DNA of 64,000 nt, from contig JBAIAA010000097.1 in NCBI GenBank assembly GCA_037893245.1, positions 62,001-126,000 of the forward strand, in the 5' to 3' direction. The translations under genes were made by a program, and so were the position numbers. Positions 4,654 to 62,979 of the stretch are shown here, piece by piece (position 1 is the stretch's first letter; each line of letters opens with the position of its first letter). Under the pieces are notes generated by a model that did no database searches, was not told the DNA's origin, and was given only the letters and a program-made list of their open reading frames with translations. Source of the DNA: Crossaster papposus (lineage: Eukaryota; Echinodermata; Asteroidea; Velatida; Solasteridae).

Positions 4654-7600
4654 CTAGTAAACATTACTGCACAGAACACAAAATGAGTTAAACAAATGTT
4701 TGCAAATAGTTCCGTTTTGTAGTTTGCCAACTTGCCTATTCAATCCCGTAATCTTTGCGAAAAGTGTTGACTGCTGTACTAGTCTCATATTAGATTCAAA
4801 AACACTGCCGGATGTGCTATCTAAGCAATCCTTGACATGTTTGTGGCTGTTAAATTTCTTGAAGACAGCTTGTTGGGCCCAAACTTTTACCCCACTTTTG
4901 AAGTAGTTAGACCAAACATGAAACAGTAATGCTTGAATTGTTGAGAAATGGCTGTCATCTGGGGATGTCGGTCTTTCATAAGCTTTTAGAATAGCACTTT
5001 GTAAGAATGGATGCTCTCTCTCAAACATCATAAAGGAAAGATCAAAGGAATTCTGCTCCTCGTTTTCCCAAACTAGTGTATTTATCATCGAGTGATCGAG
5101 TTGCCGCAAAAGGATAGCATCTGCGTCAATGTACACCCCACCCCATTGGAATAGTATCTCCAGTTTTGCAAATTCTCCTTTGTTTAAACCGGATCCCAAT
5201 CTCTGGTGATTTTTGATGTCAATTTTTGTTTTGATTATCTCATTACCGATGCTGGCACTGAGTGAATGTACTTCAATAGTGTAACCAGCCTCTGTTAACA
5301 CGTCGAATTGGCCTGTCTGTAAGCTATCACTATGAATGACAATCCTGCCACGGGGATAATGATATAAGATGGACTCAATGGTCCGCCATTTTGGCCAGTC
5401 GAGACTTGTACCATTTATAGTCGTGTCTAGGATTAAATGGAATAGCTGACTCGACGTGTTTGTGGCGGGAGGTGACAGGGGTAACAGGCCAAATTTACGA
5501 GCGCTGTCGTATAAAGCTTGGTCTTTTCGAATCACGTTCCAGTTCGTTGCCCGAAGGCGCATGCGCAGGCTAAGGTTGGGATTGGGCGGTGGATGTGTCC
5601 AGTTAAAATCACGCAGCCGTTGCGCAATGGACACATTCGACATGCCGTTGGCCTCTATAGTGTGAAAGAGAGGTGTAAGTCCCGTCACACGGGAAGAGAC
5701 TTTTAAACCATGATCCGTGTTACCCCCGGGCATGCTATGGGAATTTAAAAAAATAACAGGTGTTCCTAAGGCAACACAAGGCAGTGCGCAGTGGATGCGT
5801 TGCGTAATGACAATATGAGCTTCGGAGTATTTTTGTATCAAACCGTACGCTGCTTGAAAACGTTTCTTGCCAGTGAATTTAGCGCCCAGATCATGCCCGA
5901 CTCTGGTTGCTCTTTTTCGTATATCTGAAGGGAGAAGGGCAGCAAATTTGTTATTCACGTCGACCAGGAATATTTTGCCTGAACGTTTGTTTTGTATGTT
6001 TGGGGTTTGGGTGAGGAGTGTTAGGCAGCCAGAAAAGAATGCATCGACGTTTATTTTCTTTAGAAACTCCACAGTGTCAGTATCCCTACATCCTATTGGT
6101 TCTTTAACCTGAAGATATTTAGCATATTTTAAGAATTTCGGTCTGACGCGAGGGGAAATATGCACAGACAGGAAGACGGGATTGATGTTTTGCGGCGGTG
6201 GCCATGACATTTTTCTAAACCCCCACCACGCGTTAAAGAACACGCGGATATTGGTAGCCTCTCTTGATTGAATGAGGTGATCTCTTTCAACAAAACGATC
6301 AACAAAAGGTAAGAATTGCGCCCCAGGAAAACACTGTACCTCGTCGCCAATATTGGCCCTCTTAAGACGACGTAATCTCCTTGCGTACGAAAGGGTTCCG
6401 AAATGGCGGCCTCTTGTATTGTCTAATGGAATCATCTTGAGATCAGTTTCTATTATTGTGGGACAATGGTCCTCAGACAAGCAATATTGGTTGAACATGT
6501 AACTGACCAACCTCTGGAAATCAAACTTCTGGAACGAGCGTGGATCTCCATTGGTGATATTCCGAGAGTATTCACCGCAGAACGCTTTGGTAAGATTCCC
6601 AATGAAAGCGCTGTACGCTGGAAACCGAGACACGCTAAGAATTCCGCGTGTTGTAGTTTGTGTAAGGTTTGTCCCAATACTGACCCAAGACTCTTCGTGC
6701 CTCAAGACAGTAAAGTGGCTGAGCTTGATCAAGGGATCGAAATGAATGCCGCCATGATGCCACAGCAAAGCTAACCTCACCGCCTCGTACAATTGGCCTT
6801 CAAAGTCAACACCTGTCAGAATCTTGTGGATTGGATGTCGGGCTAACCAAGCCTGCAAGGGGGTATTCTTGAAGATTTCTGGTAGCACTAAAAACTTCGC
6901 TGTAATCGCTGGGTTGCCCAAATCGTGTACTGCCTTCATACAGTTGGAGGTACCGCAGAATATCTTCATGGTCATATCGGGATTCATATCCAAAAATGAC
7001 TCGAGGTTTTCTACCACATTGTACGGAATGGGTCTATTATAAACCCAAGCTGATGTGATGACTTCCCTTGGTGTGTATGAGGCAGGTCGCATTTGTAATA
7101 ATTGGTTCATACGTGCAGCAGATTGGAATAATCCCAGGAACCAGCAAAATGACGAAATACCCAAGAGGATGATGGTAAGAGAAAAACATTGTCGATATTT
7201 TACAACCTTTATCGAAATGCGGCCGCCTTGATATTGATAATGTCCAATTAAAATAACCAATAAACCAGTGACTGTCCACAATGTAAACGGTGTGGAGAAG
7301 ACTATCATGTTTGCCAGGATGACAAACATTCTCTTCGCGAGGTTCAATACAGCATGTTCCACAGGACTGAATGCTTGTAGCACCGTTATGGAGGCGACGT
7401 TGTAGATAAAGTGGAAGGTGGCAGAGGTGTAACTCTCCACAGGAGGTAGTTTATCAAAGCTGCCTATTCTGAATATTGCGAACGGAAGCAGAACCAGGGT
7501 GTTTAAGGTAGACACTACTGCAAATTGTTGAAGAGGACCATCCCAAGCCGTACCCAACTTCTTCAGGTAGATGTTGCGTATCGGGAAAGCGATGTTAGAA

Positions 7601-8118
7601 ATAACTGCAGCACTAAGTCCCCAGATATTAAAGGAGACCTCGCCCGAAATAAACAGACACGTGCCCACCACCATTGCGATGATTGAGGGCAGCACATTGC
7701 GGGTCAGGTTGCTACTAGTCTTGAACAACAGCAGTGAGAAAACAAAGGTGAAGATTGGCTCACACGATTTGATGACCTGAGTCAAACTTGAACTGGAAGC
7801 AGCAAACGACGCATTTGTGGCCAAGTTTCCTACTACGTTGCCAGTAGCTGCCAGTAGCACGTATTTGCGATTGGAAGAATATTCGGGAAAGACTGACTTG
7901 CCACGGACTACAAAGAGCCACATGTTGGCTAACAGCGCACCCAAGAGGTGTTGTAGCATTGTCAATTCAATCCACCTGATATCCTTGAAGGCCGGTGTCC
8001 AAGTAGTCAGACTGTCGATGACGTCAGGTTTGATGCCACTCACTGCTTTTTTCGATGCTATTGTGGCAACCATGTTGGCAATCCACCAAACGGCCACAAA
8101 TAGCACGACTTTGTCCAT
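4654..8118 (-). CDS. TPT transporter / GT32-like / pyruvyl transferase / GT32 fusion protein
   Basis: One open frame of about 1,154 codons. Residues 1-300 form a TPT/EamA-type carrier (SLC35E-like start MDKVVLFVAVWW, about 10 hydrophobic helices). An extra helix at about 311-331 follows the basic stretch RISIKVVKYRQ and should carry the remainder into the Golgi lumen, where about eight N-x-S/T sequons lie. Residues 380-560 resemble GT32 but the DXD position is HFDP (D461). Residues 640-800 match polysaccharide pyruvyl transferase (EPIGCRDTDTV, FFSGCLTL, and QRIHCALP with R774/H776). Residues 894-1130 are a second GT32 domain with YIDADA (D998/D1000). The start is the first in-frame ATG, just past a 3' splice site; the frame runs upstream only without ATG. 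Donor, acceptor and sugar specificity are inferred. Confidence 0.88.
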   Translation of the reverse strand: MDKVVLFVAVWWIANMVATIASKKAVSGIKPDVIDSLTTWTPAFKDIRWIELTMLQHLLGALLANMWLFVVRGKSVFPEYSSNRKYVLLAATGNVVGNLATNASFAASSSSLTQVIKSCEPIFTFVFSLLLFKTSSNLTRNVLPSIIAMVVGTCLFISGEVSFNIWGLSAAVISNIAFPIRNIYLKKLGTAWDGPLQQFAVVSTLNTLVLLPFAIFRIGSFDKLPPVESYTSATFHFIYNVASITVLQAFSPVEHAVLNLAKRMFVILANMIVFSTPFTLWTVTGLLVILIGHYQYQGGRISIKVVKYRQCFSLTIILLGISSFCWFLGLFQSAARMNQLLQMRPASYTPREVITSAWVYNRPIPYNVVENLESFLDMNPDMTMKIFCGTSNCMKAVHDLGNPAITAKFLVLPEIFKNTPLQAWLARHPIHKILTGVDFEGQLYEAVRLALLWHHGGIHFDPLIKLSHFTVLRHEESWVSIGTNLTQTTTRGILSVSRFPAYSAFIGNLTKAFCGEYSRNITNGDPRSFQKFDFQRLVSYMFNQYCLSEDHCPTIIETDLKMIPLDNTRGRHFGTLSYARRLRRLKRANIGDEVQCFPGAQFLPFVDRFVERDHLIQSREATNIRVFFNAWWGFRKMSWPPPQNINPVFLSVHISPRVRPKFLKYAKYLQVKEPIGCRDTDTVEFLKKINVDAFFSGCLTLLTQTPNIQNKRSGKIFLVDVNNKFAALLPSDIRKRATRVGHDLGAKFTGKKRFQAAYGLIQKYSEAHIVITQRIHCALPCVALGTPVIFLNSHSMPGGNTDHGLKVSSRVTGLTPLFHTIEANGMSNVSIAQRLRDFNWTHPPPNPNLSLRMRLRATNWNVIRKDQALYDSARKFGLLPLSPPATNTSSQLFHLILDTTINGTSLDWPKWRTIESILYHYPRGRIVIHSDSLQTGQFDVLTEAGYTIEVHSLSASIGNEIIKTKIDIKNHQRLGSGLNKGEFAKLEILFQWGGVYIDADAILLRQLDHSMINTLVWENEEQNSFDLSFMMFEREHPFLQSAILKAYERPTSPDDSHFSTIQALLFHVWSNYFKSGVKVWAQQAVFKKFNSHKHVKDCLDSTSGSVFESNMRLVQQSTLFAKITGLNRQVGKLQNGTICKHLFNSFCVLCSNVY

Positions 8119-8146: not shown

Positions 8147-8180
8147 CTACGTAGAAATAAAATAAGAGAAAACAAAGAGT
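8147..8180 (-). promoter_or_regulatory. 3' splice site before the fusion gene start codon
   Basis: Read on the minus strand, a pyrimidine-rich tract (TTTTCTCTTATTTTATTTC) ends in TACGTAG, followed at 8146 by 28 bases and then the ATG. The coding region is therefore probably one exon preceded by a non-coding first exon farther upstream. That first exon was not located. Confidence 0.65.
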
Positions 8181-11213: not shown

Positions 11214-12097
11214 CTGTAACAGAAATAAGAAACACTGAAAGTTCGCACTTAACCTCAAACTTCTTATTGTATTTAACCCAAGTGGAACGTAAGGCTTCAA
11301 GTTACGCTTATGCTCAGCTTATGCAGTGATTTATAACAGCATGCCGAGCTATTTCATCATTACAGCTAAATTTCGAATGGGCTTTTAGGATAAAAACACA
11401 ATACTTACACAAAAACCACAGGCAGGCATCAAGAGGTGAGCTAGGCTGAGTGTTGTTACCAGCGCCGGCGCTAGCGCGCGCCGAATGGAATCGACTGATT
11501 CCTAGCGTTATCCACAAACAGAGTTACTGGGGGACGAATGTATTGCAACGTCTAGAAACCAGACGCCCGTCCTTGCTAATAACTATTCGCTTGTTATTTT
11601 GCAGAAATAGTTTTTAAGTGAAAGGTGTAACTTTATTTTCATTTGCAGAATTTGTTTAAAGGAGTAAATATTTTATTTAATATTGGTATTAACCATTTAG
11701 CATTTTCGAAGGAAAAAGGGGCGCTGATGGAATTATATAATCTTAAAACTTTAACATGTGTCACTTCGTGAGACCAGCGTATTCGGTTTCTGTGAGGGCA
11801 GGAAGTGACCTATCTGGATGTGTCACTTCGTGAAAATAACTCATTTTTTGGGTAGTGTCGTTTTTAAATATCCAAAATGTGGGTCAAAAACCTAGATTTT
11901 GAGAAAAAAGAAGATATTTGGAAAGATCTTAATCTAAGGAATAAAATTCGACCCAACAAAATCGATAGGTCACTTCGTGCGACCAGCGACGATTTACAAA
12001 ACTATTAATATTTTCAAAATACATGTAATGGTATAAAGTAGCCATGATAATTAAAGCATTTTGGGAGTTTGCTGAATGTTAAAACAAAACCAATATT

Positions 12098-15000
12098 TTG
12101 GGGAGAGTCGACTCCATTTGTTCATCTCGCATGCCTTCAACGCTCAAACAACTACCGAAGCAAACGCCATCACCTACTTGTACCAATAGTAATGTGACTA
12201 CTCTCCCACGCTTTTTGTTAACGAATGCTCGCTCTGTACTTAATAAATTTGATGAGTTGGAACTGAAGCTCAATAATGAACAAATAGATGCTGTTGTAAT
12301 AACTGAGTCGTGGATAACTCCAGACACTTCAGATGAGCAATATTCCATGGAAGGTTACAATGTATTCAATAAGTGCAGACCGGATAGAAACGGAGGTGGT
12401 GTTCTGCTGTATGTGAAGGAACACATACAAGCTTCAGTGATTGACAATCTGCATGTTCCGCCAGAGATCGAGGGAGAATGGATTATGTTACACCACCCTA
12501 AATTCCCAAGATGTGTTCCATCCATAGTGGTGTTTGCAGTATACAGCCCTCCAGACTCTCAGCATGAAGATCTCTTACGACATCACATCATCTGCTCAGT
12601 TGACAGACTTCCGACTCGTAAACCATGTATTGGAATAGCTCTACTTGGTGACTTCAATAAAGTGGACATTAGACCTATTTGTAATGGTAATAATCTTGTG
12701 CAAATTGTGACCAAACCGACTAGACAAGATGCTATTCTCGACCTTATTATTACCAACTTTTCTGACCAATATCAATGTCCTATTGTATCCGCTCCAGTTG
12801 GTCGTAGTGATCACAACTGTATTACATGGGTTCCCAAAAATGTACGTATCTACAATAAAATAACTACTAAAGTTATTAGACCTATGAAGGAATCTGGTAT
12901 TAGGTCCTTCGGTATATGGGTACAGGCACAGAACTGGGATGATATTTCGAATACTAATGCTTGTCAAGCCAAAGTAGATGCCTTCTATAGTCTGGTTCAT
13001 TGTGCCATTAAAGATCATTTTCATCTAAAAATTATCAAGCGTCACAATAATGATAAACCTTGGATGACTGATCAAATTAAGGACATAATTACACAGAGGC
13101 AGAGGGCATTCGCTGAAGGCAACCGACATCAATTTAATTGCATGCGTAACAGAGTTAATAGGGAAATAAATGCTGCCAAACAATCTTACTATGCTGGTAG
13201 AATTCGGAAATTGCAAAAGTTGGACCCGTGGAGATGGCACAAAGAAGTACGTGATCTGGCTAACATCAGGAAAAGTGATTTTACTATTTACATACCAGAT
13301 TTGGACTCATCTGAACATGAATTAATTGCCAATGCTATTAATAATCGCCTGGCTATAGTTTCTCACAATCAAATAATCCTCCGAATTTTCATGAACTTCC
13401 AGCTTACTTACCGTCACGTGAGCCACCGTCCCAGGTTAAACCTTGGGAAGTCTATAATGAGCTGAAAAGAATCTCTGTTTCAAAATCTGGTGGTCCTGAT
13501 AACTTACAAGCCAGAATTATCAAGGAGTTCGCATACGAACTGAGTATCCCTGTAACTGACATCATTAATTGTTCGTTATCCCAGGGCATTGTTCCAGTCC
13601 GGTGGAAACAAACAAACGTTGTTCCTATTCCTAAGCAATTCCCGCCCACATTGGATAAACTTAGGCCCATTTCTTTAACCCCATTGTTAGCCAAAATAGC
13701 TGAAGGATTTATTTGTAAATGGGTTATGAAGACAATTAAACCTAAGATTGATAAAAGACACTTTGGCAACCAGAAAGGATTATCAACCAAACATTGCCTT
13801 GTGGATGTTTACCATCACTTAGTCACTGGTGCTAGTACTTCGAATAATATTGGTTCTATTGTACTAACAGATTTTACTAAAGCCTTTGACAAGATTAACC
13901 ATGTTATAGCTATCAAGAATCTTTTGAATTTGGATGTGTCTCCAGCTATTGTACATTGGATTGCTAATGTTTTTAATGATCGACAACAAGGGGTCAAGTA
14001 TAAATAAACATTTTCGGACTGGCAAACTGTATCTGAGGGCGTCCCACAGGGAAGTAAATTAGGGCCGGTGATTTTTCTAGCTTGCATTAATAGTTCTGCT
14101 GATCCTGTTCACAGTAAATGTTGGAAATATGTAGACGATCTTACACTTAGCGAAAATAGGCACATCAATGTTGCTAGCAAGATTCAGCATAATTTGAACA
14201 ATTTGAATGATTGGGCTTTAAACAATAAACTTTCCTTAAACCCTTCAAAACATCAAGTCATGCAAATCTACTCTGGTAGGAAGGAACCACCTGTAGTAAC
14301 ATTGTCTATACTAGATGTTCAACTTCAACAGGTTCACAGTGTTAAATTATTAGGCGTCACCTTACAACATAATTTGAAATGGGACATGCATATTGGTAAT
14401 GTAGTTAAAAAAGCCTCCAGGAAACTTTTCATGTTGAGGAAACTAAAAAAGAATGGTCTTACTAATGACGAACTAGTGACTGTGTATAAGGGTTATATCA
14501 GAACCTTTGTGGAATATGCAGCTCCTCTATGGCACTCTGGTATTTCCCTCACTCTTTCTGACCAACTAGAATCCATTCAAAAACGAACATTTCGTATCAT
14601 TTTAGGCAACAAATATACTCATTATGATCAAGCATTAGCCACTCTGGGTCTGAAACCTTTATGCACTATAAGAATCAAACTGTGTACAAATTTTGCATTG
14701 AAATCATACAACTCAAATATATTTAATGAATGGTTTGTTAAATCCAAAAGCTCCCATTCCATGAATGTTAGGTCCAAGAGAACTCTCCATGAATTAACCT
14801 GTAAAACTACACTTCTCAAAAATAGCCCAGTTCCATATCTCAACAGACTCGTCAATAAGGCTCTCAGCACACTCCAACCATCCCCATAATTGTTTGTTTT
14901 GTTTTAGAATTTGTATTTGTGTATCTTTTTGTGTGCAATATTTTCGTGTGTTTTGTACAGATATATAATTATCTTGTTAATTTTTTTAAATATTTTGTTG

Positions 15001-18936: not shown

Positions 18937-19073
18937 CTAATGTCAAATAGGAAACAAGTCGATATAAAACACAGATATTTAGGCACTTTTAATTAAGACA
19001 GCCCGATAGCCAGATGAACAAACAAATGGACAGACAGACAGACAATTGTTTTTTTTAAGACAGCCCGATTTAA

Positions 19074-19684
19074 GGGGGGGGGAAAGGGGGGGGGAAAGGG
19101 GGGGGGAAAGGGGGGGGGAAAGGGGGGGGAAAGGGGGGGGGAAAGGGGGGGGGAAAGGGGGGGGGAAAGGGGGGGGGAAAGGGGGGGGGAAAGGGGGGGG
19201 GAAAGGGGGGGGAAAGGGGGGGGGGGAAAGGGGGGGGGGGAAAGGGGGGGGGGGAAAGGGGGGGGGAAAGGGGGGGGGAAAGGGGGGGGAAAGGGGGGGG
19301 GAAAGGGGGGGGGAAAGGGGGGGGGAAAGGGGGGGAAAAGGGGGGGAAAAGGGGGGGAAAAGGGGGGAAAAGGGGGGGAAAAGGGGGGGAAAAGGGGGGG
19401 AAAAGGGGGGGAAAAGGGGGGGAAAAGGGGGGGAAAAGGGGGGGAAAAGGGGGGGAAAAGGGGGGGAAAAGGGGGGGAAAAGGGGGGGAAAAGGGGGGGA
19501 AAAGGGGGGAAAGGGGGGGAAAGGGGGGGAAAGGGGGGGAAAGGGGGGGAAAGGGGGGGAAAGGGGGGGAAAGGGGGGGAAAGGGGGGGAAAGGGGGGGA
19601 AAGGGGGGGGGAAAGGGGGGGAAAGGGGGGGGGGGGGGGGAAAGGGGGGGAAAGGGGGGAAAGGGGGGGGGGGGGGGGGGGGGG
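19074..19684 (+). repeat. Polypurine G-run/AAA microsatellite
   Basis: About 610 bases of G runs (6-20 long) separated by AAA or AAAA, with no pyrimidine at all. It divides into blocks by unit: G8-9/A3 (19074-19330), G7/A4 (19330-19505), G7/A3 (19505-19600), then long G runs. The long frames through it (glycine/lysine or proline/phenylalanine repeats) are not genes. Confidence 0.95.
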
Positions 19685-19998
19685 TATTGACATGTACAGT
19701 ATGCTTTACCTTACATACGCACTGTGGACATTCCTTTGTCTTCGGGTAGTTAACCAACTTTGACTAAATACTCATTTTGCTCGCTTCCCCAAAACAAATT
19801 TACCCTCAAATTTGGATTATGGGCCTCTCAGCTGTCCCTTCTATCTTTTCTATATATAACCCTAACCCGTTTTTCCTCTAGCGCTCTTTTTCGGAAACTG
19901 AAAAACGGATTGTGGACGTGTGCAAGTCCACAAACCGTAACCTCTTCCCGCATCGTGTGGACCTATATTGTTCGGAGGTCCACAGTGCGTATGCAAGA

Positions 19999-28876: not shown

Positions 28877-30342
28877 TTTGGTGGAAGATCCGGGTAGAGG
28901 AAAACAACCACAGCCTTTCGAATACCTTCAAGCCGGATCCGCTTGCCGTACAAGCTGATATTGTCCATTCAAGCCAACATGCTACCCCTGTCCTGATCAC
29001 GACCACAGCGCCACAGCCAGCCGGCCTCGCCAGGATTCGTCTTTTGGATGTACCAGCGGCCAAACCGCTGACTGCGACTGGACGAGCCCGAGTCCTGCAG
29101 CCAAGTCGGTGTCAGGACATCGAACCAGCTCGAAGTACTCATCGATGTTGAACCCGTGGGCCCGTCGAACAAGCCAGCTAGCTGTCCTTTCCCCAGTGGT
29201 CACACATCCAGTGACTACAGCGAAGAAAATCTACATTTAACTTGGACAGGTGTTTCTCTTTCTCTGAAACAGAGTTCGAAATTGCGGAACATATAGGCTT
29301 CTTGATCACCACATTACAATCATCACTGAGTGAAGATTCAAGAACTGCACCGTTTTTTCTTGTTAGTTGAGTTTACGTTGAAGACCTTGAACTGTACATT
29401 TACTCGCCTTGATCAGCCCGGCCAGTTACTGCAGAACCTGCCGAGAAGTACATTACGAGTACATGCCAACTCAAGGGTCAACCAAAGAACACCTGTGAAC
29501 ATACTTCAAGACAAGAATCCGGATTAGCAAAAGGTAGAGGCTTGAGTTATTTTACCAAATTACTGCGGACAAAAGTCCCAACTGGTTGCTAGTTCATTGT
29601 TGTATTGTGTGTGTTAGCCCAAGCAATAACACGAACAGTTATTTGTCTTGGTCCCATACTCCAGCTAAGCGCACCCATTAGAAGGCGTATTGACAGGCGT
29701 CTGTTTATGACTAGGAATTTACACAAATAGTCGATTTGAGTTTACGGAAAGAAGAAAAGTATTACTCGTAGCAAACCAAATGCCGTAAGAACCAACCCCA
29801 AGCCCGTACGAGACGCAACTCGTGTGTTGGAGTTTTGATTTGTATTATTGCATGGTAAACTGAGTGTTCTGATTTCACTGATTTACGCTCTTTTTCACTT
29901 TCCCAAGTTTGCTTTCATTTTGCATCTTATTGTGGTGTCCAATTTAATTTGGTTTGACATTTAAGTCAGTATAGCTATCAGATTTGATATTTTCATTTGC
30001 AGATTTGATAAATACTGTATTTATACCATTTTACAATTTGGTAATGGTTCTTCTCGAATTAGCTGTTCCTTTGTAATCGCAAATTCACTCGTTGACTGAT
30101 CCACCCACAGCGCAAGTTGAGCGATATTTTATGTGAATGGGTAGAAATTGTTTTGTTGATTGATCTTTGACAGGAAGATTTGAATAATCGTTATTGTTTT
30201 TCGTATATCGTTTTCGTTCTTGCAATATTCTTGATCTTGTATTTTGTTCCTAAACTGTAATAATTTGATGCCTAGTACCATTGACGCTCTTGCTTTTATA
30301 GTGTTAGTAGGGCTACTACTTAGTACTTCATTATCAGACATC

Positions 30343-31828
30343 ATGGCTACTTCTAGAAAACGGTCTCAAGAAGAGTACTTATACCCCGCCACCCCTAGAA
30401 CAGTCCGATACTCAGGAACCCCATCAACAACCCATTCCACAACCTCACCTCGCCATCCCACAACAGCTTCAGAAACCCACGATGAACTGCCGATCCACGG
30501 ACAACACCACACAGAGACAGAAGAGCAACTAATCGCAGACCTGCAGACTTTGGAGAGACGAATTGATCAAAGCTTTCCCCGGCCTCAAGCACCCAACCGA
30601 CGACAGTCGAGAGCTACGTACAGTGACACAACCCGATATGAGCCTGGTACCCGTGCCGAAAGCTCCAGGCCGCCGGACTACACAGGATATACACCTCAAC
30701 GGAGAAATCAACAATCTCGTTCTCCTTCAACCCCTCTGCAGCTGATGCCATCTCATCAGATTAAAAGTGTACCCATATATACCGGCCGAGAAGGTTCAAC
30801 GGTGTGTATTGAGGACTGGGTGAGGGACATGACTTACCTAATTGAAAACACAGCCATGCCATCAGAGATGAAATTTTCGACCATTGTCAGGAACCTCGGA
30901 GGAGCAGCCAGGGAAACTCGTGCTTAATCTGTCTACTGACGAACAAACTCCAAGCAGCGCCTTTGCTGAGCTAAAGGCACAGTTCGGAGACATAGCCATG
31001 AGAGGGGACCCACTCGCCAATTTCTACGAGCGTTTGAGACAACCAAATGAGTCACCTGGTATTTACGCTGTAGAACTTGAAGCAACACTTCGGACAGTGG
31101 AGGAGCAGATGAACAACTGCCACCCCCTTCCCAGCAGAAACGGAATGCTCACACAGCAATTTATGCGTGGCGTCAAAGATGAAAAGATAACCAACCGCCT
31201 GGCCCCAATGAAACCTAGGGAGATGTTATTTCGTCAGCTGCAAATGGAAGTTAGACAGATTGAACGAGAACGCAGGACTGAAACCCTATCACACCCCAAA
31301 ACAGAAGCGAAGGCCCAGTCGCAGCCACAGTATGTTCCACCACAACCTACATCCCACACTCAATCACAGCTGAAACAGCATAAAGTGACATCCGCTCTTA
31401 AACAGCAGGCGGCGTCCACTAGCGATCTACCAACAAATCAAGGGCAGAGTCCCACTGATGAAATTCTTCAGAGTCTGATCTTGAAAGTTCAAGAATTGGC
31501 CCAGACTGTGGAGCACATCACGACACCAGCACCAAACCCGTACCAACAATTACAGCAGCAGCGACAGTACCGACCGCAGCAGCAACAGTACCGACCGCAG
31601 CAGCAACAGTACCGACCGCAGCAGAGTCCCACTGAGCAGTATCCCAAACAGCAACAGCAACAGTATCAGCAACAATCTCCTTCAGATGCGAGCCAGCAAA
31701 AAGTTTTCATCTGTTTCCGATGTGGCCAAGGGGGTCATATAGCTCGAGGTTGCAGAAACATTCCGTTAAACTTCCAGGGCCCCCGGAACCAGGGCAAACC
31801 GTCGGTGGCCCCAAATCAAGCCCAATAG
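30343..31828 (+). pseudogene. Gag-like region of the LTR element
   Basis: Starts at an ATG (MATSRKRSQEEYLYPATPRT). It has a Ser/Thr/Pro-rich first part, a capsid-like helical middle (NFYERLRQPNESPGIYAVEL, FMRGVKDEKITNRL), a glutamine-rich stretch with QQQQYRPQ repeats, and a CCHC zinc knuckle (CFRCGQGGHIARGC) at the end, as in Gypsy gag. About one break. It overlaps the start of the pol frame. Confidence 0.8.
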
Positions 31829-34800
31829 GCCGAACTCTGCCCAAATCTACAACAGGCCAACAATGTTCAACGATTCATTGTGATAATGTGAGGCTAGACC
31901 ACCAGCAGTTGATCGGCCCACACAATGAAGACATTGTAGAGGTTAATGGACAGAGTTATCGAGCATTGATCGACTCTGGATCCCAGGTAACCTCTGTTAC
32001 TGAAGATATGTGGAGGAAACATCCCAAGCTCAAAGATATCAAATTGTCCTCGGGTGATGTTTACATAGAAGGTGCCGGCGGCCAAAAAGTTTCGTACTTG
32101 GGGATTCTTCGCATTTCTCTCACGGTCCTAGGCATCACGTACGATGATGTACCAGTTTTTGTTGTTCGTACCGATAGCTACCGTCAGCAAGTACCAGTTT
32201 TAATAGGAACGAATGTCATCCGGGCTTCGAGACGAGATCAGCAGATTGAAAGAGGTAACTACTTTATGCAACACCTAAAAGAGGAAAACACAGCATGGTA
32301 CACTGCATACGTCAATACATCCATCACTGATTTTGGGGACCAACACGGCAGAATGGGTTATGCAAAGTACGTGGGACGCTACCCTAGAAAGATACAACCA
32401 GGCACAGAAGTCGATATTATCTGCGAAGCGCCGCCCAACCCAACAGGTCGTCCTTACACTGCCGTAATCGAAGGTCTACCAAATAGTGCATCCTGCTTAA
32501 GAATTGGACATCTGCTTGCCGACGTAGGACCGAACCGCCGAGTACCAGTAAGGATATGCAACATTTCAGCCAGACCTGTTGTAATCTCTAAAAACTGTCA
32601 GCTAGCCCAAGTATACTCGGTTCTACGGGTAGATGAGACAAAACAAACCACCAAGATGGCAGAAACACTGTCTACTTCACTTCATCCTAATGATGGCTGC
32701 CCGCGTGCTCATGTGAGGAACATCGGAACAACTAAGCAACTAGCCGACATCATATCGTCTCTCGACCTGCCTGAATCTGCACTTGAAGATGAGGTGCAGA
32801 GGGAGCAACTTCATAATCTCCTTCTAGAGTTCACAGATATCTTTTCTGTCGACTCTCTCGACTTCGGACGAACCGTTACTGTGAAGCATTCGATACCTCT
32901 CATGGATAACCATCCGTTCCGGCTTCCTTATCGGAGAATACCTCCTCGCCAGTACCAAGCGGTCAAAGAACAACTTCAGAAGATGGAACAGGCTGAGGTT
33001 ATTCGCCGTAGCAACAGCCCTTACGCCTCACCATTGGTTATCGTCCACAAAAAAGACGGTACCTTACGAATCTGTATAGATTACCGCCAACTCAATAGCA
33101 GGACCATCCGCGATGCGTACCCTCTTCCGCGGATTGAGGAAGCTTTAGATGCCCTGGGTAATGCCAAATTCTTCTCCACCCTCGACCTAACATCAGGCTA
33201 TTGGCAAGTTGAGGTAGAGGAGCAAGACAAGGCCAAAACTGCATTTACTTCCCCTATGGGTCTCTACGAGTGCAATCGAATGCCTTTCGGCCTTCAAAAC
33301 GCACCGGCAACGTTCCAGCGATTAATGCAGACCTGTCTAGAGGACCAGAACTATTCTTCTGTACTACTTTACCTTGACGACGTCATCGTTTTTTCATCAA
33401 CATTTAAACAACACCTGCAGCGATTAGAGAAGGTATTTGCCTGCCTCCGTCGGCATGGATTGAAGCTAAAGCCTTCCAAGTGCCATCTCATCCGAAAAGA
33501 AGTGACATACCTTGGCCACATTGTGTCGGCAGCAGGCATATCTACAGATCCTGATAAAGTTGCTAAAGTTAGGGACTGGGAAACACCTCGCAACCACAAA
33601 GAATTACTTCGGTTCCTAGGTTTCACGGGGTATTATCGACGATATATCAAGGGATACTCAAACATCGTTGCACCTCTCTACAAGCTCACTGCTGGAAACC
33701 CAAGACGGAGGAAAAATGGCAAGAACAGGAAGTCTGTATCGGTTCCTCCTTTCATTTGGTCAGACGAATGCCAGCATGCGTTTGAAGTCCTGAAACACCT
33801 GATGACATCTGCACCAATCCTTGCATTTGCTGACTACACTCAACCATTCATTCTACAAACTGACGCGTCAGGAACCGGACTTGGAGCGGTGCTAAGTCAA
33901 ATTCAAGATGGTCAAGAACGAGTCGTAGCCTACGCCAGCAGGGGACTAAGTCCATCAGAGACCCGTTATCCAGCGCATAAGCTCGAGTTTCTCGCATTAA
34001 AGTGGGCTGTTACCGACAAACTGCGGGATTACCTTTTAGGCAACACATTTACCGTTTGGACAGATAACAACCCACTCCTCTACATCCAGAGCACAGCAAA
34101 GCTTGACGCCACCGGACAACGATGGGCTGCTGCCCTTTCACAATTTAATTTCACCATCAAATACAAGCCTGGGAGAAACAATTCTGCAGCAGACGCCTTG
34201 TCTAGGCAACCACAGCCGAAATTGTCAGACCCTTCACCCACCTTGGATCAGGGAGCACTGGCAATTCCCCCCGATGTTGTTCAGGCGATCTGTGGTGGTC
34301 ACCCTTCCAATTCATATCCTTTCATAGAAGCCCAAACGGGACAATGTAACGTCACAACCAGACAGCAAGCAAGGCTCCCTACTTCTGTGAAGCTCAAGGT
34401 CGGTAAAAATGATCTTCCGGGTTTGTCCAAACATCAACTGGCTCTGACTCAACGCGATGACCCCAGTATCTCCCTAGTCATCCAGCTTCTCGAGAAAGGC
34501 CAGAGACCTGACGACCAAATCAGAAGAGATAGCTCTCCAGAATGTCTCATATACTTCAGACAGTGGGAAAAGCTGGAGTTAAGAGACCATGTCCTCTACC
34601 GTCTCCGCAAGACAACGGATGGTACATCTACACACCAGTTGGTCCTGCCTACGTTCTATCGAGATACTGCCATGACGGGTCTACACGATGACATCGGACA
34701 CCTTGGCTACGACCGAACTTTAGACATGGTCCGACGGAGATTCTTTTGGCCTAGAATGGCTCAAGATATTGCAAGGTGGTGTAAGACTTGCCAACGATGC

Positions 34801-36459
34801 TGTCTAAGAAAAACTGCGACAGGAAGGGTCCGTGCTCCGTTGGTCTCAATTCAAACAAACGAGCCACTGCAACTCGTGTGCATCGACTACTTGAAGCTTG
34901 AACGGAGTAAAGGTGGTCATGAAAATATCTTGGTCATAACGGACCACTTCACCAAGTATGCCCAAGCGTTTCCTACTCTAGATCAGAAGGCAGAAACGGT
35001 AGCACGGGTACTATGGGAAAGCTTCATCCTTCATTATGGATTTCCAGCCCGCATACACTCAGATCAAGGTCGTAACTTTGAAAGTCGAGTCATCCAAGAA
35101 CTTTGTAAAGTTTGTGGAATTCAGAAAAGTAGGACGACGCCCTATCATCCTCAGGGTAACGGGCAAACCGAAAGGTTTAACCATACCTTGTTGAACATGT
35201 TGGGAACACTCGACGACAGTCAAAAGAAAAATTGGAAGCAATACGTAGGAGCGATGTGCCACGCTTACAACGCTACCTGCCACGACACCACAGGTTTTCC
35301 TCCGTTCTTTTTGATGTTTGGGCGTCACCCCAACCTCCCGGTCGATCTCATGTTTGGAATCAACAACACAAATGACGACACACCTCCCGAGTATAACGAC
35401 TATGTACAGAACCTCAAACAACACTTAACATCGTCCTACAAGACAGCCAGCAAGCTAGCAAGTCAGGCGAAAGCAAAACAAAAGCGCAACTACGACCACA
35501 AGACCCATGATGCCCCCCTGCAACCTGGTGACCGTGTCTTGGTGCAAGAAAAGCATATCATAGGAACGCACAAGTTGGCGAACAGATGGGAAATGCATCC
35601 CTACATCATTGTTTCGAAACATGAAGGTATCCCCGTGTACACTGTCCGTTCCTCTACTTCTAGTAGAGAAAGAACAGTACATAGGAACCTCCTCACACCT
35701 TGCATGTTCCTCCCAGTAGTGATAGGAGACGGAGAACCAGCTTCACCTGAAGTCAAAATAAAGACAACCCCTGAGAAAATCCAAGCAGACAAAAAGATCA
35801 TCTATGAAGACAGCAGTTCAAGTGACAACACGGACGAAGATGCTGGAATTGTCTTTTATCCTGTTCACATAAGACAAGAACTTCCTCCTTCAGAACCTCC
35901 GCCAAAACTTGTATCTCCATCATCAGAGCCACCATCTCCATCATCGGAACCACCATCTCCACCATCGGAGCCTCCATCTCCATCATCGGAGCCTCCATCT
36001 CCGTCATCAGAGCCACCATCTCCACCATCGGAGCCTCCATCTCCACCATCGGAGCCTCCATCTCCACCATCGGAGCCTCCATCTCCACCATCGGAGCCTC
36101 CATCTCCATCATTAGAACCTCTATCTCCACCCGAACCTCCGCTAGAGAGTTTATTTCCACCAGAGCTTCATTCTCGGCTTTCCTCGACGCCTCAACCCCC
36201 TTTTGAACCACAGTCGAAAATACTCCCCGAGCCTATTCTTGAACCTCTAGGAGCAATATCTAGACCAAAGAGAACCAGAAGACCAATTGATCGACTAACA
36301 TACGACTTCTTAGGGCAGACTAAACAACACCTCGTTAATTATGACAAATCTCACTTATGTAAACTTGAAAGAGGTAAAGCTCTCTTAGTGAAATGGAAGA
36401 GCCCAGAAATGGCTTTAACTAGAAAGAAAGCATTGTTGAGATTAATGTCAGAAGATTAA
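31829..36459 (+). CDS. Pol polyprotein region of the LTR element
   Basis: One long open frame. Aspartic protease lies near 31960 (ALIDSGSQVTSV). Reverse transcriptase spans about 32930-33540 (LRICIDYRQLNS, FFSTLDLTSGYWQVEV, YLDDVIVFSS). RNase H spans about 33840-34190 (LQTDASGTGLGAVLS, VWTDNNPLLY). Integrase spans about 34680-35420, with an H-H-C-C zinc motif and catalytic D-D-E (VCIDYLKLE, HSDQGRNFES, GQTERFNHTL). A proline-rich tail follows at 35870-36250. Neighbouring gag lies upstream in another phase, as is common for Gypsy. Its openness agrees with the near-identical LTRs. Confidence 0.92.
35909..36120 (+). repeat. 21 bp minisatellite encoding SEPPSPP repeats
   Basis: About ten 21 base units (CCATCTCCACCATCGGAGCC-like) encode repeated SEPPSPP/SEPPSPS near the end of pol. 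It is the only low-complexity part of the frame and probably varies in length between copies. Confidence 0.9.
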
Positions 36460-52964: not shown

Positions 52965-54884
52965 ATGGCGGAGGCTGCAGCCCGAACCGTGTTGGACACA
53001 ATTAGCCAGGGGCATCTGGAATGTCCAATCTGCTGCGATCGATTCAAGGATCCTAAGATGTTAGACTGTCTCCATAGCTTCTGCCTGAAATGTCTGGGTA
53101 AGATGGTGAGCAAAGAGACGACAGAGAGGGCGAAGATAACATGTCCAGTCTGCAGGAGAGAGACGGTCGTTCCTGAGGAAGGAGTGCAGAGTCTGTCTTC
53201 TAGCTTCTTTCTGATATCTCTTGTCGATGAGATAAGCAAACAAGAACAGTTATTAGGAAAGGTAATTACTACTAGTGTGACTTGTGAATCCTGCGAAGAA
53301 GAAAATGAGGCCATGTTAAGATGCCTTGACTGCAAGAAGAACATCTGCAAGAAATGTCAAGAGGCGCACCGTCGCTTGAAGTCCACCAAAAACCATCGCA
53401 TCATTCCAGCAGACGACGTGGACAAACCGAGGGCTTCACCAACAGATGCTAATAAACCTGCCACACCAAAATGTAGAAAACATAGTGATCACGCCATATG
53501 CTTTCACTGTGAGACTTGTGATGTGTTGATTTGCGCTATGTGTGTTGCAACTGAGCACCGAACAGCAGAACATAAGTTTATTGGTATCGGTGACACCATC
53601 AAATCATTCCGTGAGAGTGTCAAAAACATATTGCAAAAGTTCCAGAAAAGCAAAGAGCAATTTGCATCAAACGAATCCTCGATCAAACATGCACGGAATA
53701 GATTGCAAACGAAACTGGCTCAGGCTTGCAGTGATATTTCTGCAAAAGCGGATGCCGAAATTGCTAAAATCAGAAGCAAAGCGAAGGTAATCACCGAACA
53801 AGTCAACAAAATCGGTCAGGAGAGAGACGGCGAGTACGAAAAGACGCTCAGGCGCAACCGTGACCAGATAAAACGCGCAGATCAGATCGTCACGGCCGTA
53901 AACGACTTGATGAGTCAAGTCGATGATTTCGAGCTCTTTGAACTCAAACCGAAGGTGATGCACAACTTGGAATTCCAGAAGGAGCTCAAGTGCGAACCGG
54001 CAAAGGTAGATCTTTCGTTCATTGGGGTCAAATGTCAAGATGTCGTCAGTGAAAAGGATCTTGGGAAGATGTTGCTCAAAGAGAAGTGGCAGGTGAAGGA
54101 AGAGTTTGGCAAGGAAGGAAACGGTGACGGGGAATTCCAATTGGCCAGCCGAGTTGCATGTTTCAGCAACGGAGACATTGCTGTGACAGACACAAGGCTG
54201 AAACGACTATCAATATTTACCTCCACTGGACATTTCAAAACTTCGACCGCTCAAAGCGGCCATCAGCTGGACGCTCCTTGGGGCATTGCTGTCACCTCAG
54301 ATAGTCTGCTTTTTGTTACTGACAAAAAGAAAGTGAAGGTTTTTGACGACAATCTTCAGTTGATTCGCGAATTCACACCATCTAAGGAAGAATCAAGTCA
54401 GTTAACCGCTATTGCGATAGACGCAGATGGAAAACGACTAGCTGTGGCTGACTCAGGAAAGAAAATTGTTTCTGTGCATTTGCTTGATGGCTCCTTAGTA
54501 GCAACTATTCCAAATGAAAATGTGACATATTATTTAGCGATAGATGATATGGAGCGCCTGCTCATTCCTAACTGCGAAAATAAAACCCTCTCCTGCGTAG
54601 ACCTCAATGGCAATGAGGTGTTCAGTATCAAGACACTTGTGGACAAACATCCTGCGAGTCCTACCGGGATCCTTTGTGACAGTCGAGGTTACTTTAATGT
54701 AGTTGTTCATTACGGTGGTAGGGGAAACTCAAAAATACAGCAGTACGACCCAAATGGATCACTGGTAGGAACTGTAGCCGAAAAGCTGTACAATCCACTA
54801 GAAATGGCATATACACCCACTGGCGACGTGGTTGTTGCAAGCTTACATTCCGTCAAGATCTTGCAGCGGGAGGGAATTGCCTGA
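52965..54884 (+). CDS. TRIM protein with NHL repeats (RING, two B-boxes, coiled coil, NHL)
   Basis: 639 residues in one exon. The C3HC4 RING has C20, C23, C35, H37, C40, C43, C60 and C63. B-box 1 has C107, C110, C120, C123, C128, C131, H135 and H144. B-box 2 has C170, H173, C182, C185, C190, C193, H198 and H203. A charged coiled coil covers about 214-330, and beta-propeller NHL-like repeats run from about 385 to the end (GEFQLASRVACFSNGDIAVT, APWGIAVTSDSLLFVTD). No filamin domain, so it is closer to TRIM56/TRIM32-like invertebrate genes than to TRIM2/3. The expected role is a cytoplasmic E3 ubiquitin ligase; the target is unknown. A splice acceptor (TTCTTTTTTCGTTATAG, 52951) lies 13 bases above the ATG. 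All zinc ligands are intact. Confidence 0.93.
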   Translation: MAEAAARTVLDTISQGHLECPICCDRFKDPKMLDCLHSFCLKCLGKMVSKETTERAKITCPVCRRETVVPEEGVQSLSSSFFLISLVDEISKQEQLLGKVITTSVTCESCEEENEAMLRCLDCKKNICKKCQEAHRRLKSTKNHRIIPADDVDKPRASPTDANKPATPKCRKHSDHAICFHCETCDVLICAMCVATEHRTAEHKFIGIGDTIKSFRESVKNILQKFQKSKEQFASNESSIKHARNRLQTKLAQACSDISAKADAEIAKIRSKAKVITEQVNKIGQERDGEYEKTLRRNRDQIKRADQIVTAVNDLMSQVDDFELFELKPKVMHNLEFQKELKCEPAKVDLSFIGVKCQDVVSEKDLGKMLLKEKWQVKEEFGKEGNGDGEFQLASRVACFSNGDIAVTDTRLKRLSIFTSTGHFKTSTAQSGHQLDAPWGIAVTSDSLLFVTDKKKVKVFDDNLQLIREFTPSKEESSQLTAIAIDADGKRLAVADSGKKIVSVHLLDGSLVATIPNENVTYYLAIDDMERLLIPNCENKTLSCVDLNGNEVFSIKTLVDKHPASPTGILCDSRGYFNVVVHYGGRGNSKIQQYDPNGSLVGTVAEKLYNPLEMAYTPTGDVVVASLHSVKILQREGIA

Positions 54885-61580: not shown

Positions 61581-62052
61581 TGTAAAAGTTGTAAGGGTTG
61601 ACCTTCAAGGAGCAAGACCACTTTCCTGGTCTAAGGAATGGCAAGTCTTAACCACACGGCCCTCAGGGGAGGACGCTGGGCTAGGCCGGTTGACCACAGT
61701 GAATCGGCCAACGACCTTATAAGGAAAACTATTTGTCCATTAATTTGCCTAGCCCTACCCCCAAACCCGAGTGGACCAAACACCATCAGTTATAAGGTAT
61801 TAATATTCAAATTATTAGTCAACAATCCCTAATAAGGCAAGAAACCTGTAAGATAGCTGTGTAGATTGGAATGTCCATTTTAGTGTGAAAAAGCCTGGTA
61901 GAATCTAGCACTCGGACAGAGAGGGCCGGAGTTACCGAATAAACCACATCAGTCAAGTACAGCTTTGTCTCCAAGTGTTTTCTGTGTCCATATAACTCGC
62001 CGGGTTATATTTGGTGGAGAATCCGGGCACCTCTCTCAGCATCAAGTCTTTC

Positions 62053-62979
62053 ATGATCACACGGTCGCAGTCTAAGCAACAGCTTTCATCAGCCATGGCG
62101 TGTAATGCACATATCGAATCCATCATGCCAAAGTTTACCGGGTATGATGCGGAGGACCCTGAGTTGTGGATCGATCGGTATGAAAGATACGCCCTTCAGA
62201 AAACTTGGACTGTAGTACAACAAGCCAGCAATTTCCCCCTCTATCTAGCTAGTTCGGCTAGTTATTGGTACAGGGATCTACCTGCAGCAACCACGACCAC
62301 TTTTGCAACGTTGAAACAGGCTTTTCTCAAAAAGTATCAGCCCCATGAAGGCATGCGATGGGTACGATTGGCGGAGCTAGCCGACAGAAAACAACAGGCG
62401 AACGAAACAGTGGAAAAATACATCGTAGACATCGAAAAACTGTGCTGTCAACTAAAGAAGTCGTCAGAAGAAAGAATGGAAGCCTTCATCAGAGGACTGC
62501 TTCCTAACATCAGAGCTTATGTAATTAAGGCTCATCCAAAGACCGTCGACGAGGCGGTGACCCAAGCCAGGATAGCCCAGTCAACGTCGACACAAGAACA
62601 AGCCCCATCGACTGAGGTGAACTCAGCTATCAAGCAGTTAGCTGACCAGATTATCGCCCTACAAAGCCAGCTCACGACAATTTCAGCTGCTCAGCCACCT
62701 CCCAGACAACTTCCGAGTGCAGTACAGCATCAGTTCCAGCCCCAGCGACCCCAAGGTTTCCGCCCGCAGCAAGGCCGAGGACAACAGCAAGTTCGACCAG
62801 CACCGTCCCTGTCGATGTACCCGTGCCATGGATGTGGAGGTGAGTGTACAAGTAGGCAAACATGTCCGGCCTGGGGTATCGAATGTAACTATTGCCATAA
62901 GTTCGGTCATTTCGCCAGAGTGTGTTTTCAACGAAGCAGACCCAACACTATCAATGATATCCACCCCTCAAATCAATGA
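62053..62979 (+). CDS. Gag of the second LTR element
   Basis: The open frame from ATG at 62053 (MITRSQSKQQLSSAMACNAH) has a retrotransposon gag domain (PKFTGYDAEDPELWIDRYER, SYWYRDLPA, LLPNIRAYVIKAHPKTVDEA), a Gln/Pro-rich linker, and a cysteine-rich knuckle region (CHGCGGECTSRQTC, then CNYCHKFGHFARVC, a CCHC knuckle). The layout is typical of Gypsy gag and unlike the gag of the first element, so this is a different lineage. Confidence 0.85.
   Translation: MITRSQSKQQLSSAMACNAHIESIMPKFTGYDAEDPELWIDRYERYALQKTWTVVQQASNFPLYLASSASYWYRDLPAATTTTFATLKQAFLKKYQPHEGMRWVRLAELADRKQQANETVEKYIVDIEKLCCQLKKSSEERMEAFIRGLLPNIRAYVIKAHPKTVDEAVTQARIAQSTSTQEQAPSTEVNSAIKQLADQIIALQSQLTTISAAQPPPRQLPSAVQHQFQPQRPQGFRPQQGRGQQQVRPAPSLSMYPCHGCGGECTSRQTCPAWGIECNYCHKFGHFARVCFQRSRPNTINDIHPSNQ

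Follow-up and report, generated by a model that had tools for sequence, protein, structure and literature searches.

On the reverse strand of a 64,000-nucleotide stretch of the sea star Crossaster papposus (assembly GCA_037893245.1, contig JBAIAA010000097.1, positions 62,001 to 126,000; hereafter the window), we identified a gene whose single product joins a transporter module of the TPT family, a membrane helix, a GT32-like domain (GT32a), a polysaccharide pyruvyl transferase domain (PPT domain) and a second GT32 domain (GT32b). We read this protein as a pyruvylation unit of the secretory pathway contained in one chain, with a probability of about 0.7. The architecture itself is near certain: Pfam profiles and predicted folds confirmed the order of parts that the first-pass annotation had described for one frame, and both TPT (PF03151, 116.1 bits against a cut-off of 30) and PS_pyruv_trans (PF04230, 47.5 bits against 25.3) lie above their thresholds in the window protein.

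Database searches returned 101 matches among 7986 scored candidates. Counted by us from the table, 73 of the 101 combine TPT, PS_pyruv_trans and GT32 Pfam matches, and 88 have TPT with PS_pyruv_trans. P0099–P0101, with GT8 matches only, were excluded from every alignment, and the family alignment comprises 99 rows. Relatives of the fusion protein were found in other sea stars, a sponge and cnidarians. The named relatives come from Patiria miniata (three), Acanthaster planci (one) and Asterias rubens (two), from the sponge Halichondria panicea (one) and from the cnidarians Xenia sp. (one, with GT32 absent from its precomputed list) and Hydractinia symbiolongicarpus (one); Actinia tenebrosa has a shorter family protein. 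No further named bilaterian was among the relatives found, in a word-limited search that does not establish absence. In the tree, the window protein groups with Patiria (74%) and Acanthaster among the sea stars.

Both modules carry conserved residues. The PPT domain has a predicted Pvg1p-like fold and, in a profile alignment to 5ax7 for which the Pvg1p numbering offset was worked out by hand, carries the Arg and His of the phosphoenolpyruvate (PEP) site: R774 corresponds to R337 (Arg in 92 of 99 rows) and H776 to H339 (His in 96 of 99). R678 is Arg in 90 of the 99 rows and invariant in nine aligned sequences, seven of which are bacterial-type stand-alone proteins; by motif alone, R678 and D592 are proposed equivalents of Pvg1p R217 and D106. 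In excerpts of the literature, to which all statements cited here by PMC number are limited, D106, R217 and R337 are proposed as the catalytic residues of Pvg1p (PMC4872226), and R148, H308 and K328 of CsaB were found critical to PEP binding (PMC10435577). The PPT domain probably performs pyruvyl transfer. The carrier is modeled as a ten-helix drug/metabolite transporter (DMT) fold with a phosphate translocator as the nearest structure. In an alignment to 5y78, numbered by hand and with pocket positions taken from PMC6981301, N98, T101, K117, F178, Y239, K262 and R263 correspond to H185, T188, K204, F263, Y339, K362 and R363. The Lys/Lys/Arg phosphate site is thus present, with K117 as Lys in 84 of 92 ungapped rows, K262 as Lys in 83 of 95 and R263 as Arg in 82 of 94. 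The commonest pocket is NTKFYKR (48 of 99 rows), with HVKFYKR in 13; the Tyr position is kept, and N98 is Asn in 63 of 92 rows where plant TPT has His. We take T188 of GsGPT to be a pocket position, and the plant translocator PPT presumably has Asn at the N98 place.

The best computational evidence for the carrier working for the pyruvyltransferase rather than the glycosyltransferase is that carrier and pyruvyltransferase modules decay jointly in some relatives, a result that rests mostly on three rows. In the 91 of 99 rows with letters at all sites, the carrier triad and the enzyme tetrad were both intact in 67, only the carrier was altered in 10, only the enzyme in 7 and both in 7 (Fisher p = 0.0037, kinship not corrected). 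Both enzyme Arg and both carrier Lys are gone from P0086, P0088 and P0092, and P0086 alone has also lost the enzyme His. In these rows the TPT and PS_pyruv_trans scores fall below cut-off or vanish, and the GT32 and Gb3_synth scores reach 47.6–64.6 bits. By module, identity is low for TPT and PPT, slightly reduced for GT32a and normal for GT32b. These three fall in two places of the tree (quick method, long branches). Across the 80 of 99 rows with all four modules, partial correlations of module divergence were 0.53 for TPT–PPT and 0.72 for GT32a–GT32b, and 36 rows thinned at 55% identity gave 0.54 and 0.75. This evidence is new and supports the earlier proposal that carrier and pyruvyltransferase work together.

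We infer the PEP cargo, the Golgi location, the ketal product, the acceptor and the order of steps. The ten-helix TPT module would swap cytosolic PEP for lumenal phosphate, and the eleventh helix would place all downstream domains in the lumen; the predicted model has 11 helices, an odd number consistent with lumenal enzyme domains. The PF04230 domain would move pyruvate from PEP, as a ketal, onto a terminal sugar, which the analogy with Pvg1p suggests is galactose; the phosphate freed by this transfer could leave via the carrier. The C-terminal GT32, related to alpha-1,4-glycosyltransferases, would probably add the pyruvylated sugar or the adjacent one, and the first GT32 fold may be a DXD-less remnant retained for structure or acceptor binding.

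Several observations weigh against this reading. The carrier triad varies with the enzyme intact in 10 of the 91 rows and the reverse occurs in 7; without the three decayed rows, the TPT–PPT correlation drops to 0.27 (0.28 in the thinned set), with GT32a–GT32b at 0.65 (0.63). In the Hydractinia protein P0089 the carrier is very divergent (Z −3.6) and the PPT domain near-normal (−1.0). The kinship-corrected loss test was not significant (nine independent pairs, median p = 0.375), with 3.4 pairs changing the same way, 0.5 the other way and 5.1 showing no difference, which is the expected direction with too few events. F178 is retained (Phe in 83 of 93 rows), and a bulky Phe at AtTPT F262 is thought to keep PEP out of plant TPT (PMC6981301). 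The window protein has no Lys 19–23 residues past H776, where another PEP contact (K361/K328) would be expected; position 795 is Lys in 26 of 99 rows, and three of seven aligned bacterial relatives have Lys at this spacing. P0098 combines the PPT enzyme with a terminal GT8 domain and has no TPT match. The supposed lumenal part shows no sequon enrichment (0.71 per 100 residues against 0.74 shuffled, 99 rows). The acceptor of Pvg1p is alpha-linked galactose in one account and beta-galactose and beta-lactose in vitro in another, which leaves the link to an alpha-galactose-forming GT32 loose, and our search of the open-licence PMC literature turned up no paper reporting sea star glycans with pyruvate.

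The strongest competing explanation, which we consider unlikely, is that the cargo of the TPT module is something else (triose phosphate, another sugar phosphate or mainly phosphate) or that the module only anchors the chain, with a separate PEP carrier supplying the pyruvyltransferase. The retained F178 would suit such a module, as would the divergence of the carrier in P0089 without that of the enzyme; in addition, 5y78, the solved structure that comes closest, bears the name putative hexose phosphate translocator, and the NCBIfam TPT/PEP model scores 83 bits, far below its cut-off of 317.9. However, an anchor would not need Lys/Lys/Arg, and most family members retain the pocket, which degenerates along with the enzyme in three rows. 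The diatom carrier NspTPT2 has the Phe, with the His and Tyr positions altered, and does carry PEP (PMC6981301); here the His position is N98 and the Tyr is kept. Import of PEP, as the first-pass annotation had it, is likely on the strength of the phosphate-binding residues and of the replacement of the plant TPT His by Asn, but the Phe thought to block PEP speaks against it. At a cut-off of 1e-10 that we set ourselves, a search for stand-alone relatives of the carrier module gave four matches.

Selection on the gene could be followed among its copies. A scan of the animal's own genome (1.02 Gb, 1841 contigs) found ten full-length, stop-free copies: that of the window and nine others with 87–89% identity to it, six on contig C1176 and the rest on C97 (the window), C607, C78 and C442. 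Haplotypes or recent duplication of blocks may account for some of them, as L003–L005, L006–L007 and L008–L009 are nearly identical. The six-copy array (G000:C1176:630258-1097613) comprises L003, L004, L005, L008, L009 and L010, and its spacing suggests a block of about 200 kb with two genes, repeated three times, or else assembly duplication. The whole-gene ratio of nonsynonymous to synonymous substitution rates (dN/dS) was 0.27–0.45 in pairs with more than 30 differences. Between the window copy and four others it was 0.32–0.47 for TPT, 0.16–0.27 for GT32a, 0.28–0.33 for GT32b and 0.84–1.10 for the linker (residues 301–345), and highest among folded modules for PPT (0.57–0.66; 0.55–0.88 in seven pairs). 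All folded modules are thus constrained, the DXD-less GT32a most in these four comparisons. Variable sites of the PPT domain concentrate in residues 581–700 (51 of 120) and 741–760 (11 of 20), and residues 761–780, containing the PEP-site RIH, hold one. Such a pattern would fit an acceptor side that changes beside a PEP side that is fixed, or simply weaker constraint. The PF04230 scan of this genome gave 11 matches, ten in the fusion gene and one on contig C8. The latter (L041, G000:C8:1526164-1526910) is a different PF04230 gene with a 320-residue frame, its neighbors read by eye as a GT25-like and a transposase-like gene, and this stretch is probably a bacterium in the assembly.

A second alternative, that the PF04230 domain no longer moves pyruvate and the protein is effectively an alpha-glycosyltransferase with large vestigial domains, appears quite improbable. 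P0086, P0088 and P0092 do look that way, and the missing Lys and the comparatively high dN/dS of the PPT domain would agree with it; yet the two Arg, the proposed Asp and the His are all present in the window protein, with R774 and H776 conserved in the proportions given above, all ten copies are free of stops and PPT dN/dS is below 1 in all seven comparisons. That neighboring separate genes were joined by assembly or gene prediction found no supporting point and counts as already refuted at the DNA level, given one stop-free coding exon, ten copies on five contigs and the same domains in many contigs and named species. Bacterial contamination of the window was also ruled out, because named animals hold relatives and the gene recurs on five contigs; the single PF04230 match apart from the fusion is the one on C8, next to genes of bacterial appearance.

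The two GT32 domains differ in their prospects. Tested alone, the second reached 32 bits (cut-off 23) and the first 18.7. The first has DPL at the DXD place, with DXD in 4 of 99 rows, and its fold matches in the structure library include glycosyltransferase domains of bacterial toxins. At the GT32b motif, 46 of the 99 rows have DxD, 19 have [DNE]x[DN], 27 have neither and 7 lack the domain. Of 42 family members scanned, 39 match PF04488 and 17 match Gb3_synth; the window protein gave no Gb3_synth match at E 0.01, and a Gb3_synth scan of the animal's genome gave no match, nor did its controls. The idea that the protein extends the glycan it modifies draws support from the C-terminal GT32 only, since the first GT32 lacks DXD. 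P0093–P0097 (five rows) have TPT, GT32a and PPT without the C-terminal GT32, and DXD in GT32a is confined to four of these five, a pattern suggesting that the catalytic role may have shifted from GT32a to an added GT32b.

Among stand-alone relatives of the PPT domain, those with a name are polysaccharide pyruvyl transferases of bacteria, with identities of about 25 to 42%, and a genome scan for such relatives found 28 loci, all bacterial except one archaeal bin. In a tree of 26 family and 103 stand-alone PPT domains (P0118–P0225 of 270–400 residues, minus P0120 and P0130), the family occupies one side of one branch (Shimodaira–Hasegawa-like approximate likelihood-ratio test, SH-aLRT, 99). A bacterial origin with a single entry would be the simplest reading of these sequences. 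A bolder scenario, which we hold to be doubtful, is that carrier and pyruvyltransferase evolve as a unit and pass PEP straight from membrane to active site, making free lumenal PEP unnecessary. In this scenario a bacterial pyruvyltransferase and a eukaryotic carrier would have come together once, and the sea star acceptor half would be diversifying among the ten copies to give varied acidic surface sugars.

The start codon of the gene is backed by comparison of upstream sequence among the copies, in all ten of which the frame is open. The putative acceptor upstream of it, AG/GCAAGCC, is present in 8 of 8 copies examined, two with a 2-base insertion.

Table. Features of the fusion gene, in window coordinates (aa, amino acids; pLDDT, predicted local distance difference test; UTR, untranslated region)
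Feature	Position	Strand	Description
Coding sequence	4654..8118	-	1154 aa, one coding exon; ATG at 8118, stop 4654-4656
TPT carrier module	7219..8118	-	Residues 1-300; ten transmembrane helices in predicted model
K117	7768..7770	-	K204 of GsGPT (5y78), by alignment
K262 and R263	7330..7335	-	K362 and R363 of GsGPT, by alignment
Eleventh helix/linker	7096..7212	-	Residues 303-341; low confidence, block pLDDT 38-65
First GT32-like (GT-A) domain (GT32a)	6406..7068	-	Residues 351-571; no DXD
Polysaccharide pyruvyl transferase domain (PPT, PF04230)	5521..6396	-	Residues 575-866
R774-I-H776	5791..5799	-	Pvg1p R337-L338-H339 (PEP site), profile alignment to 5ax7
R678 in GCRD	6085..6087	-	Proposed equivalent of Pvg1p R217/CsaB R148, by motif
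Second GT32 (GT-A) domain (GT32b)	4660..5463	-	Residues 886-1153
DAD (DXD motif)	5119..5127	-	Residues 998-1000, read from sequence
Putative 3' splice acceptor of 5'UTR intron	8147..8170	-	Sequence comparison of copies

Elsewhere in the window, a TRIM-like single-exon frame (52965–54884, forward strand) matches RING, B-boxes and NHL repeats. By reading only, gag/pol-like frames of long terminal repeat (LTR) retroelements lie at 30235–36459 and 61996–62979, and endonuclease/reverse-transcriptase frames of an element resembling a long interspersed nuclear element (LINE) at 12083–14889, all on the forward strand. A G-rich repeat with strong GC skew (18979–19763) opens long frames on both strands.

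The single-chain form and its animal range appear undescribed; each part is of a familiar kind, and fission yeast runs the pathway with separate proteins. In the open-licence PMC literature (listed titles and abstract openings), we found no account of the fusion or of an animal pyruvyltransferase. The first-pass annotation knew of no described animal protein with this order of parts. The family is already in public databases, where its members are named 'uncharacterized' and one fragment is listed as a 4-alpha-galactosyltransferase-like protein, and is thus undescribed rather than unseen. To our knowledge, covalent linkage of a membrane carrier to the enzyme expected to use its cargo is rare. 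Pyruvylated galactose has been known since 1993 from a sponge adhesion proteoglycan (cited in PMC4872226 and PMC7828597), and sea hare glycolipids carry pyruvate (PMC6994554); the excerpts of these accounts name no animal enzyme. The family is a candidate for the machinery that puts pyruvate on animal sugars, a single testable gene in sponge, cnidarians and sea stars, and if the reading is true, pyruvate ketals would occur on surface or secreted glycans of these animals.

Among known systems, Pvg1p of Schizosaccharomyces pombe likewise belongs to the PF04230 type, matches in fold and shares the PEP-site Arg/His, and Pet1p/Pet2p are Golgi PEP carriers in the same role (PMC4872226). In yeast these are separate proteins, whereas the sea star has one chain, with 9% identity to Pvg1p in the structural alignment and a PPT domain nearer by sequence to bacterial stand-alone proteins. 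Bacterial pyruvyl transferases (CsaB, EpsI-like) share PF04230; a Cyanobacterium sp. relative has 33% identity (E 5e-61), and an Alteromonas relative with 42% identity lies among open reading frames read by eye as exopolysaccharide genes. These are single-domain proteins of about 300 residues, unlike the sea star domain fused behind a membrane carrier. A sea anemone family member is named lactosylceramide 4-alpha-galactosyltransferase-like, recalling GT32 alpha-1,4-glycosyltransferases, which are otherwise stand-alone type II proteins. Finally, the plastidic phosphate translocators (TPT/PPT/GPT; GsGPT 5y78) share the ten-helix fold and the Lys/Lys/Arg phosphate site but reside in the plastid envelope, whereas the sea star carrier has an extra helix, three further domains and Asn in place of His185.
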